Of a stretch of 64,000 bases of DNA, positions 48,668 through 52,977 are shown in pieces. The number at the start of each line of letters is the position of its first letter. Within the stretch, counting starts at the first letter, position 1. Below the pieces are notes generated by a model. The model saw nothing but the letters and a program-made list of their open reading frames with translations, was not told the DNA's origin and searched no databases. The position numbers and the translations under genes are program-made. Origin of the DNA: Fimbriimonadaceae bacterium (GTDB taxonomy: Bacteria; Armatimonadota; Fimbriimonadia; Fimbriimonadales; Fimbriimonadaceae); the NCBI GenBank assembly GCA_019454145.1, contig CP075366.1:475564-539563 (forward strand), given 5' to 3'.

Positions 48668-48809
48668 CACTGGTTAAAACCAGTGCCAGCCACCAAGGCA
48701 TATTTTGGTGCTAATCCTCCCTCCCCAGTAGTTTGGGGAGGGAAGGGCGGGGTTGTTCCATGTTTATTGACAACCCTCCTCTTAGTCTCCTCCCAAACTT
48801 GGGAGGAGA
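48668..48809 (+). repeat. REP-like hairpin array, copy 1
   Basis: Between glnA and nrdB lie an 18-bp perfect palindrome with 8-bp arms (48668-48685), CACCAA/TTGGTG (48691-48710), CCCTCCCCA/TGGGGAGGG (48719-48742), GGTTGT/ACAACC (48751-48775) and an 11-bp perfect stem with 2-nt loop (48786-48809). CACTGGTTAAA and the TTTGGGGA...AGGG.GGGGTTG segment recur at 52983-53060. The first hairpins may also end glnA transcription. Confidence 0.6.
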
Positions 48810-49110: not shown

Positions 49111-50199
49111 ATGGATACGATTCAAATTAAAGTAGGCGAAAGGTCGTTCACCCTCGACCGAGAAAAAGCAGAAGCCGCGCAAGTCGCTAAGTCCGTCATC
49201 AACGGTCGCGAAACCATGACGTTCAACCTTCTGCCGCTCAAATACACCTGGGCGTACACGCTTTACCGGACGATGAAGGCCAACCACTGGGAGCCGGAAG
49301 ATATCCCCATGCAGCGCGACATCGAGCAATGGCGCAGCGATAACGACCTCAGCGACGTTGACCGCTGGGTCATCCGCATGGCGATAGGCTACTTCAGCGC
49401 GGCGGAAGGAATCGTAGGCGACAACATCCTGCACGTTGTTCGCGAAAATGTCACCGCCAGCGAGCTCAAATTGGTGCTCGGACGCCACGCCCACGAAGAA
49501 AATATCCACGCCGACAGCCTGCTTTACATGATTTCCAGCCTAGGCATCAATCCGCACGAATGCGAGGCGATGTTCGAAGACGTTCCCACCATCAAGCGCA
49601 AAAACGAATTTGTCACCCGCATCAGCCAGAGTATGCGGCGCGATATTGACCTCACCAAAACCGAAAACAAGCAGTTACTCGCACGCAACATTTTTATGTT
49701 CGGTCAGTGCATGGAAGGCACCCAGTTCTACGGCTTATTCGGCATGGTTCTCAGCCTGTACCGCCAGGGCAAGTTCCCAGGCATCGGGCAAATGTTCAGC
49801 TACACCTTGCGCGACGAAAGTAACCATATCGAGCTGTTCCGCCAACTGCTCATGGAACTCGTGGACGAAAACCCCGATATCTGGACGAGCGAATTCAAAC
49901 TAGAACTCGTGAATACGATGAAGGAAGCGGTGAACCTCGAAAAAGAGTTCATCCGCGACTGCCTTCCAGTTGCCGCTGTCGGCCTGAGCGCTGAGGAGTT
50001 CATGCAATACATTGATTACATCGCCGACCGCCGGCTGGAAGGCTGTGGCCTACCCGCCATGAACCCCGGCATCGCCAATCCTCTGCCTTGGCTCGCGGAA
50101 ATGATGGACATCAAGAAAGAGAAGAACTTCTTTGAAGGCCGGGTGACGGAATATCAAAAGTCATCGGCTCTGAATGCAGTCGATGACGACGAGTTGTAA
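49111..50199 (+). CDS. nrdB: Ribonucleotide reductase small subunit, class Ic-like
   Basis: A 362-aa R2 subunit that supplies the radical or high-valent metal site for deoxyribonucleotide synthesis. Metal ligands can be placed at Glu99 (FSAAEG), Glu130 and His133 (HEENIH), Glu202, Glu236 and His239 (RDESNHIE). The usual radical Tyr (His+4) is Leu137, with Tyr139 at His+6, and the first ligand is Glu instead of Asp. This matches the Chlamydia-type class Ic (Mn/Fe) pattern. The frame opens at GTG 49048, but ATG 49111 fits the family. The large subunit gene is not adjacent. The 3' end is duplicated at 51715-51732. Confidence 0.9.
   Translation: MDTIQIKVGERSFTLDREKAEAAQVAKSVINGRETMTFNLLPLKYTWAYTLYRTMKANHWEPEDIPMQRDIEQWRSDNDLSDVDRWVIRMAIGYFSAAEGIVGDNILHVVRENVTASELKLVLGRHAHEENIHADSLLYMISSLGINPHECEAMFEDVPTIKRKNEFVTRISQSMRRDIDLTKTENKQLLARNIFMFGQCMEGTQFYGLFGMVLSLYRQGKFPGIGQMFSYTLRDESNHIELFRQLLMELVDENPDIWTSEFKLELVNTMKEAVNLEKEFIRDCLPVAAVGLSAEEFMQYIDYIADRRLEGCGLPAMNPGIANPLPWLAEMMDIKKEKNFFEGRVTEYQKSSALNAVDDDEL
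50182..50199 (+). repeat. Direct repeat, left copy (3' end of nrdB)
   Basis: GATGACGACGAGTTGTAA, the last five codons and stop of nrdB, recurs at 51715-51732 with one change. The two copies flank 1.5 kb holding the PIN gene and a RAYT fragment. Confidence 0.75.
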
Positions 50200-50229
50200 A
50201 CATTAATCGACTTAACGCAGAATAATGAA

Positions 50230-51549
50230 ATGACGTCAATGCACGATCTGTTCAGGCATCATTATCGGCTTAACGAGTCTGAAAAACAGTCACTTTGGGA
50301 AAATTGTGAATTTGCTTTAGACGCGAATGTACTCCTAAACGTGTACAGATATGATGATGAAACCCGCGAAGCTTTTTTCGAAATTCTCGCTGCCCTGAAG
50401 GATCGTATTTGGATACCTCACCAGTCTGCCAAAGAATTTTTCGAAAACCGCATTTCAGTGATTCAGGAGCCAGTTAAACAGTTTGAGGAACTAAGTGTAA
50501 CTCTCGATAAACTGACTGAAAAAATAAATATTGCTAAGTATTCAAAAAGTACTCATCTGAATGTTGAAAATATTGTAGATATAATAGAAAGAGCAGTAGC
50601 TGATGCTAAAAGTAGCATTTCCTCTCATAAGGATCGTCACAGAGACTTGATACGAGACGATTCCTATTTAACCAAATTAACGAGTTTAATTTCTGAACGA
50701 ATAGGCCAACCATATGACGAAAATGAATTGAATAAAATTTTAAAAATTGCTCAGCAGAGAATAAACAATTCCACACCTCCAGGGTATAAAGATGCTGGTA
50801 AAGGCGAGCCTGAATGTTATGGAGATACCATTGTTTGGTTTCAACTAATATCAAGAGCAAAAGAAACAAAACGACCAATTATTCTAATTACTGATGACAA
50901 AAAAGAAGACTGGTGGGAAATCATTAAGGGCGAAAGGCTGGGGCCCAGGCCGGAACTGCGAGCTGAGATGTTTGCTGAAGCACAAGTGGATTTCGGGACT
51001 ATTAATTCTGCTAACTTTTTCGAACATAGTGGAAAGGGGTTGTCCATAAACGTTAAAAAGGCTAGTGTGGAAAATGCAAAGGATGTATCTGCTGGTATCG
51101 ATAGTAGTCTGCTGAGCCATTGGTATACTAATTTCGACGTTGAGCCACCTGATAAATCAGCAATATGGATTAAAAGTTTTGAATACGCAATAATCAATTC
51201 CTTGGCAAAAAAAGGGCTATTTCTTCAAACAAGTAAATATTCCTTTTGTGATTATGAGGCAATTCAAAATGATGCAAGTATCTTTTTTAGCTTTAAGCGC
51301 ATTCAGGAAATTCGCACTATGTATAATCATATACAAATGTTTGCAAAGCACATATATGGTCTAGATCAATCTAAAGCCGAATTTAGATTGTATTTCGTTT
51401 TTGATAATGAAGAAAGTGGGCTGCAGGCAATAGATAGCGTTTACGCATTAGCAAACTTCAAGGGATCTTTCTTCAGAGTGCATATAGGCTTTCTAACCGA
51501 GTTTTCAGGTTACCAAGAGATTGGATTCTTATATCTAGGAAGTCCGTAA
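50230..51549 (+). CDS. PIN-like domain (PIN_8 type) protein
   Basis: A 439-aa protein. The N-terminal region (about 25-225) looks like the PIN_8 nuclease-like domain: FALDANVLLNVYRYDDETRE with the first acidic residue, RIWIPHQSAKEFFENR, a conserved acidic KGEPECYGDTIVWFQLI and PIILITDDKKEDWWE. The remaining 200 residues match nothing I recognise and may be a target or sensor domain. It is clearly more AT-rich than its neighbours and is enclosed by a direct repeat of the nrdB end, both signs of acquisition. PIN_8 proteins are often found in mobile or defence settings; a defence role is only a possibility. Confidence 0.78.
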   Translation: MTSMHDLFRHHYRLNESEKQSLWENCEFALDANVLLNVYRYDDETREAFFEILAALKDRIWIPHQSAKEFFENRISVIQEPVKQFEELSVTLDKLTEKINIAKYSKSTHLNVENIVDIIERAVADAKSSISSHKDRHRDLIRDDSYLTKLTSLISERIGQPYDENELNKILKIAQQRINNSTPPGYKDAGKGEPECYGDTIVWFQLISRAKETKRPIILITDDKKEDWWEIIKGERLGPRPELRAEMFAEAQVDFGTINSANFFEHSGKGLSINVKKASVENAKDVSAGIDSSLLSHWYTNFDVEPPDKSAIWIKSFEYAIINSLAKKGLFLQTSKYSFCDYEAIQNDASIFFSFKRIQEIRTMYNHIQMFAKHIYGLDQSKAEFRLYFVFDNEESGLQAIDSVYALANFKGSFFRVHIGFLTEFSGYQEIGFLYLGSP

Positions 51550-51603
51550 AGAACTATATGGTACTTTGAATATATGTCAAGTGTGCGTGGATATAGGAAT
51601 CTA

Positions 51604-51713
51604 ATGAGGTGGCAGAACTTCTCAGTCTAGCGAGGACGTCTCCGACACTAGCGGGCGGATGGAGTCCAGTATTACGCAAGTTCCGCCACAAACACCCACT
51701 CGAAGTACACGGG
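51604..51713 (+). pseudogene. Truncated RAYT gene fragment
   Basis: About 110 bp that closely match the first codons of the intact RAYT gene at 52504, from GGTGGCAGAACTTCTCA to the ACAAACACCCACTCGAAG region. It has an in-frame TAG where the intact gene has TGG, a 1-bp deletion near 51677, and stops abruptly at the second copy of the nrdB tail. Upstream TGTCAAGTG is shared too, so the duplicated piece began before the start codon. Confidence 0.82.
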
Positions 51714-51714
51714 G

Positions 51715-51732
51715 GATGACGACGAGTTATAA
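51715..51732 (+). repeat. Direct repeat, right copy (duplicated nrdB tail)
   Basis: GATGACGACGAGTTATAA repeats the nrdB 3' end with 17 of 18 bases identical. It joins the RAYT fragment on its left to the terminator hairpin on its right. Confidence 0.75.
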
Positions 51733-51736
51733 GAAG

Positions 51737-51765
51737 AATTAGGCGGACAAAGCGTCCGCCTAATT
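51737..51765 (-). terminator. Terminator of the papain-like peptidase gene
   Basis: AATTAGGCGGAC (51737-51748) and GTCCGCCTAATT (51754-51765) form a perfect 12-bp stem with a 5-nt loop. On the minus strand it lies 6 nt after the peptidase stop and is followed by CTTCTTAT. It may also have ended nrdB transcription before the insertion. Confidence 0.8.
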
Positions 51766-51771
51766 CCAACC

Positions 51772-52455
51772 TCATTCTTCTTCAAATTCAAAGAAGGCAT
51801 ACTCTAAGCCCGTTCCAGCAGGCACTCTCTGATTACTGAAAGTCAGTGCCCAACCTTGTGGCGTCGGTTGCAATTGCCCCGATCCTCTTATAGGATCAAA
51901 AATTCTCAATGAACTTGGGTATTTGTAACCATTTGAATCTTCCTGGTACGACATTCCGGAAATAGCATAAATATGAGCTGTAGTGAACGACTGGTCGTTC
52001 CATAAGCTGAGGAGCACAGGCGTTTTTCTTTCCTTAATAGATTCAACAATTGAATCAAAGTCACTAGCCATATCCATTGGGTCACTCTTCACAACGGGTG
52101 TCACATCCAAAGACATCGTGAATCGCTTATTCTTGTTATTAACGAAAACACACTCTGTTAGTGGCTCAAATTCCTGGAAGCTCTTGATGGTTGTCACAAG
52201 AGAATCGCCATATACGATTTTTACAATATTAGCTTGGGAGACTGGTAGTTTCTCGTCATCTCCGAATTCGATACTTTTAATATTCATGGTTGCAAGAACC
52301 ATCTCCATGCCAGCCGCCCAGCACCAAACTAATGTTTCCTGGTAACGTTTTTTTGAAACAAAATTGGAAATTTGAACATTTTTAGTTGGTGGAGGAGCGT
52401 ATTGCTGAAGAGAGGATGATTGTAGAGTCAAGGCAAGAATGGTGCTTATTATCAT
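51772..52455 (-). CDS. Exported papain-like cysteine peptidase
   Basis: A 227-aa protein with a short hydrophobic N-terminus (MIISTILALTLQSSS) and a C39/C70-type papain-like fold. The catalytic Cys is in TLVWCWAAGMEMVLA, the His in TTAHIYAISGMSY and the Asp in LRIFDPIRGSG. Family members cleave peptides or act as secreted effectors; the substrate is unknown. It is somewhat AT-rich and lies between the RAYT fragment and the intact RAYT gene. Confidence 0.72.
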   Translation of the reverse strand: MIISTILALTLQSSSLQQYAPPPTKNVQISNFVSKKRYQETLVWCWAAGMEMVLATMNIKSIEFGDDEKLPVSQANIVKIVYGDSLVTTIKSFQEFEPLTECVFVNNKNKRFTMSLDVTPVVKSDPMDMASDFDSIVESIKERKTPVLLSLWNDQSFTTAHIYAISGMSYQEDSNGYKYPSSLRIFDPIRGSGQLQPTPQGWALTFSNQRVPAGTGLEYAFFEFEEE

Positions 52456-52503: not shown

Positions 52504-52977
52504 ATGGCTAAGTGGCAGAACTTCTCAATTTGGCGGGGACGCCTCCCGCACTGGCGTGCGGATGGAGTCCAGTATTACGCCACCTTCCGCCACAAACGCC
52601 CGCTAGAAGACGCAGAGATAAACCTGCTGTTCCAGCGGTTGATGCGCGCGCAGAGGCGCAAGTTCGACTACCACATCCTGTGCGTGTTGCCCGAAAAAAC
52701 CGAGATGATCTTCACGGTCAACGAATCCCCCGATGGTTCGCCTTACGAACTCACGGACGTGATCGAAAAAGCCAAACGCCAGGCGGGGAACGCGATCATC
52801 AAAAAGAGCCAGGAGCGGTGGCCCCCGTTCTACACTGAGTGTTATGATCGCATCATCCGCGACGAAGCCGAGTTTGAATCCACTTGGGAAGCGATCCTAA
52901 GTTCACCCGTGGATACTGAACTCGTCGAAGACCCGAGCGATTGGTGGACAATCTTCGTCCCCGATGCACCGGAGTAA
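52504..52977 (+). CDS. RAYT-like Y1 transposase relative lacking the HUH motif
   Basis: A 157-aa protein homologous to REP-associated tyrosine transposases. The N-terminal WRGRLPHWRADGVQYYATFRHKRPL corresponds to the usual GHLPHW...YFVTFRL opening. The middle DYHILCVLPEKTEMIFTV aligns with the family's VVMPNHVHLL, but both histidines of the metal-binding HUH motif are gone (PEKTE). The tyrosine region FYTECYDRIIRDEAEF is retained. This suggests a domesticated or catalytically altered protein. A REP-like array begins 6 bp after the stop and another lies before nrdB. A broken copy lies at 51604. Confidence 0.8.
   Translation: MAKWQNFSIWRGRLPHWRADGVQYYATFRHKRPLEDAEINLLFQRLMRAQRRKFDYHILCVLPEKTEMIFTVNESPDGSPYELTDVIEKAKRQAGNAIIKKSQERWPPFYTECYDRIIRDEAEFESTWEAILSSPVDTELVEDPSDWWTIFVPDAPE

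Follow-up and report, generated by a model that had tools for sequence, protein, structure and literature searches.

The window analysed here is a stretch of 64,000 nucleotides. Within it, the region downstream of the ribonucleotide reductase gene nrdB is occupied by the following features:

49114-50199, forward strand: nrdB, ribonucleotide reductase small chain (Pfam PF00268, E = 9e-68)
50182-50199, forward strand: nrdB tail, first repeat copy, GATGACGACGAGTTGTAA, the terminal 18 bp of the gene
50230-51549, forward strand: PIN_8-type nuclease gene, 439 aa (PF18476, E = 2e-64)
51609-51714, forward strand: decayed 5' fragment of a RAYT-like gene with two TAG stops, delimited by alignment to intact copies
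51715-51732, forward strand: nrdB tail, second copy, GATGACGACGAGTTATAA, 17/18 identical, joined to the RAYT fragment at GATGA
51736-51768, no strand assigned: hairpin with arms GAATTAGGCGGAC / GTCCGCCTAATTC
51772-52455, reverse strand: AT-rich gene whose product, with a WCWAA motif, is probably a secreted cysteine peptidase of papain-like type (weak match to Pfam C70)
52504-52977, forward strand: intact RAYT-like gene (NF047646 REP_Tyr_transpos, E = 4e-10, scoring 40 bits where the equivalog cut-off is 80)

The order along the window is thus nrdB-[PIN]-RAYT'-nrdB tail-[peptidase]-RAYT, where RAYT' is the broken copy and the hairpin lies between the second tail and the convergent peptidase gene. 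The nrdB-RAYT junction is present in two copies and a different foreign gene fills the spacer of each, while the duplicated material consists only of the nrdB tail and RAYT 5' sequence, with order and orientation kept. At their right-hand ends both spacers have TGTCAAGTG, some 35 bp ahead of the RAYT start, and no longer agree upstream of it; at their left-hand ends they diverge from the nrdB stop codon onward. Based on this comparison of the spacer ends, the PIN and peptidase genes sit in equivalent places. As the preliminary description had stated, no integrase is present, and no recombinase reading frame was recognised between 50199 and 52504.

The same description had reported that the final 18 bp of nrdB recur downstream with one base changed. 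A search of the whole 2.76-Mb genome that allowed up to two mismatches confirmed this pair and found just these two sites, and none for a reversed control pattern. The probability of a 17/18 match arising by chance in the roughly 220 bp from the PIN stop to the peptidase stop is about 2e-7 by our own estimate (222 x 55 / 4^18), in line with the earlier judgement that chance is improbable. Taken alone an 18-bp match is short, but this one is unique in the genome and is fused to a fragment of the very gene that follows nrdB in related genomes, which leaves chance resemblance or local drift a next to negligible probability. The tail at 51715-51732 is a genuine copy.

The broken RAYT fragment recognised earlier is likewise real, as it matches the intact copy of a relative with 82% identity over 113 bp (E = 1e-20). 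It contains two in-frame TAG stops and a 1-bp deletion, and it corresponds to the 5' part of the neighbouring gene at 52504-52977, a link that had been missed. The similarity may start near 51574, upstream of the gene's start, and can be traced almost to the start of the nrdB tail copy, with the last 9 bp or so before GATGA aligning only with a small indel. At the position of the join the RAYT-like genes of three relatives (G004, G001 and G002) carry GATGAAC. The nrdB tail opens with GATGACGACG, such that the 5-bp word GATGA is found both in the nrdB tail and in the RAYT-like genes of relatives. The window's own RAYT-like gene now reads GATAA there, and its ancestor would, judging from these relatives, have carried GATGA. 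Over 104 sites the fragment has 14 private changes; it agrees with the window RAYT alone at 5 sites and with the G004 RAYT alone at 3. The window and G004 differ at four-fold sites by 0.17-0.42. These values suggest that the copy was made near the split from G004, and the fragment would fit, within the few sites available, a pseudogene that was copied in the window lineage at about that time and has been free of selection since. It is a duplicate from the chromosome and not cargo of a mobile element. The earlier view that both the PIN gene and the RAYT fragment lay inside one element therefore holds for the foreign PIN gene and not for the fragment, which is part of the duplication.

Related genomes preserve the empty site. 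An intact RAYT-like gene follows nrdB after a spacer of 45-80 bp in G003, G004, G005 and G006, and the short contig of G007 has the same nrdB-spacer-RAYT order; these five genomes all belong to the same genus. The NrdB protein of G004 is 100% identical to that of the window. The PIN gene is absent from all seven other genomes of the genus, and no relative of the peptidase was found in 60 related genomes. Together with the order in the relatives, these absences point to an ancestral arrangement of nrdB, a short spacer and the RAYT-like gene. An empty site had been anticipated in the preliminary description and does exist, but nrdB runs into the intact RAYT-like gene there and not straight into the hairpin. 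The stretch from 50200 to about 52490 was either gained in the window lineage or lost from the others, and gain is far simpler. No genome intermediate for two insertions or for a fusion of alleles was found. Downstream of the RAYT-like gene in G004 (L037) lies different cargo of about 2.8 kb, with a large protein gene missing from the window, and the neighbourhood is thus variable between genomes.

Both spacer genes differ in composition from their surroundings. The PIN gene, already described as clearly AT-rich, has a GC content of 0.372 and a GC3 of 0.316, lower than any of 190 equally long segments taken by sliding along the window (mean 0.489, sd 0.024). It is horizontally acquired and foreign to the locus. 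The peptidase gene in the second spacer copy has a GC content of 0.409 and is foreign as well; its Pfam C70 match (E = 0.011) is below the cut-off. The hairpin after the second nrdB tail is strong (fold z = -5.8) and stands where several relatives (the spacers of G005, G006 and G007) have hairpins just after nrdB, so that it plausibly was once part of the original nrdB end. It had been proposed as a terminator shared between nrdB and the peptidase gene. The structure itself is real, but it has no T run and does not appear in the list from a simple scan for intrinsic terminators.

The RAYT-like gene was found in 36 of 36 other genomes searched from the same family and in 0 of 24 from the order's other families. 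The gene at 52504-52977 has YHILCVLPEKTEMIF at the position of the H-u-H motif (read by eye; motif as defined in PMC6006769) and thus lacks HUH, and the combination of HUH and catalytic tyrosine by which TnpA-REP is recognised was not found in it. It resembles a transposase that has been domesticated for a conserved role. A REP-like palindrome, CCTCCCC-(6-8 nt)-GGGGAGG, is located at 48720-48741 of the window and occurs 53 times in the genome (once for the reversed control), often paired. The same palindrome has 44 copies in G004 (control 0), one of them inside the nrdB-RAYT spacer.

An AT-rich gene missing from relatives and enclosed by a direct repeat of its neighbour's end is what would be expected if a small integrating element had brought in the PIN gene as cargo, using the nrdB 3' end as its att site and rebuilding the coding tail on entry. 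In genomic islands at gene 3' ends, a gene tail is likewise repeated around AT-rich foreign DNA. Here, however, the repeat includes the start of the downstream RAYT-like gene, which is chromosomal and ancestral at this locus, and no integrase is nearby. An integrating element would moreover be expected to leave a single att copy between the same two flanks in relatives, where nrdB is instead followed by the intact RAYT-like gene. With one exception, other PIN_8 genes do not repeat the pattern either: in a scan of 103 further loci, three had flanking repeats scoring at least 16 and 102 were without a copied neighbour tail. As the copied unit contains the start of a downstream chromosomal gene and a recombinase is lacking, we rejected att-site integration, which we regard as highly improbable. 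What stands of the element proposed earlier is a foreign PIN gene and a copied tail, and what falls is the att-like boundary. Another reading, that the nrdB-RAYT spacer is a landing site which captures foreign genes, the PIN and peptidase genes among them, without an integrase, would have the dispersed REP-like palindromes, of which one occupies the spacer of G004, and the RAYT-derived protein make the spacer break or pair often; we consider it very unlikely. Most probably, the repeated nrdB end is a trace left when the sequence that links nrdB with the RAYT-like gene was duplicated by accident, and not an att site. The one locus in the scan that resembles the copied-tail layout is L139 (2900-5789), where a PIN_8 gene is bounded on one side by the 3' end of a phage integrase gene and on the other by a degenerate repeat of that gene's tail, a possible parallel.

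We infer that illegitimate recombination duplicated the nrdB-RAYT junction and that the PIN and peptidase genes entered the spacers later or jointly, a reading in which we have considerable confidence. Starting from nrdB, a short spacer and the RAYT-like gene, recombination would have taken place at GATGA, which occurs in the nrdB tail and again some 40 codons downstream of the RAYT start. The RAYT 5' end would thereby have been joined to a second nrdB tail, giving the junction twice, with the first spacer copy coming to carry the horizontally acquired PIN_8 gene and the second the cysteine peptidase gene; the truncated RAYT copy would then have decayed. Bacteria are known to form tandem duplications joined at short homologies or at none (PMC11111574). 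As in these, an adjacent ancestral block (the nrdB tail and the RAYT 5' end) was copied directly and in the same orientation, the join would fall at a few matching bases and a recombinase is lacking, whereas the copies here are old and decayed and their spacers are filled by foreign genes.

Two different foreign genes demand either two further insertions or the fusion of two alleles. Perhaps a junction of about 220 bp was duplicated in tandem in one genome and the PIN and peptidase genes then inserted independently, a route that we hold tentatively, at somewhat short of an even chance. Such duplications are well known in bacteria and the RAYT fragment is nearest to the window's own lineage, but both inserts occupy the interval from right behind the nrdB stop to some 35 bp short of the RAYT start, and two insertions at equivalent places would be required unless the spacer is a hot spot. 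Alternatively, a donor strand carrying nrdB-PIN-RAYT may have been fused in one step to a recipient nrdB-peptidase-RAYT allele by homology-facilitated illegitimate recombination (HFIR), in which one end of a linear DNA is integrated by homology and the opposite end is joined illegitimately (PMC3240628). Pairing would have been homologous at nrdB, with the far end joined illegitimately at GATGA and new DNA gained, and the different genes in the two spacers would be explained at once. Here only the product is seen, and neither an nrdB-PIN-RAYT donor nor an nrdB-peptidase-RAYT allele was found in the seven other genomes of the genus. Divergence from G004 along nrdB likewise shows no clear spike, the lowest 100-bp block (49955-50054) being 88% identical, and we regard fusion as a possible but rather doubtful route. 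The present genomes fit both routes, duplication first or allele fusion, and do not separate the one from the other. In either case, simply duplicating the junction of two genes can leave a gene-end repeat that resembles an att site, and related genomes serve to tell one origin from the other. Apart from its captured nuclease gene, the locus reflects ordinary genome evolution.

The PIN_8 profile matches the encoded protein with 218 bits (gathering score 26.1) over residues 28-243. The protein looks intact, and the predicted nuclease is probably active because D31, E69, D199 and D227 are invariant in 50 sequences. Within the phylum, 8 of 291 genomes (its own included) have relatives, which are also found at 77 loci on viral contigs and in 54 plasmid records. 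None was found in a collection of phage records, which suggests that the viral contigs are probably mostly proviruses. This patchy distribution over viral contigs and plasmids suggests an accessory RNase, probably one of anti-phage defence. No model of the PADLOC library matches the protein, and a literature search on PIN_8 in phage defence returned nothing. With the PIN_8 nucleases of viral contigs and plasmids it has in common all conserved acidic residues and the patchy, mobile distribution, but it differs from them as a chromosomal orphan beside nrdB whose C-terminal third is dissimilar to 110 relatives. A C-terminal half of 200 residues had been set apart from the outset, and from about residue 286 to the end the protein has no match in any of those relatives and only weak matches to replication proteins among plasmids. 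The structure model has low confidence from about residue 290 onward, a Foldseek comparison of this part with the PDB gave no usable match and a PDB sequence search gave only chance coiled-coil matches. This region might be a rapidly evolving sensor or serve to bind the target. The gene would thus add to the probable defence nucleases that chromosomes have captured. At loci L069 and L070, which come from two distant members of the phylum, a PIN_8 relative with 36% identity is located between dnaK and dnaJ.
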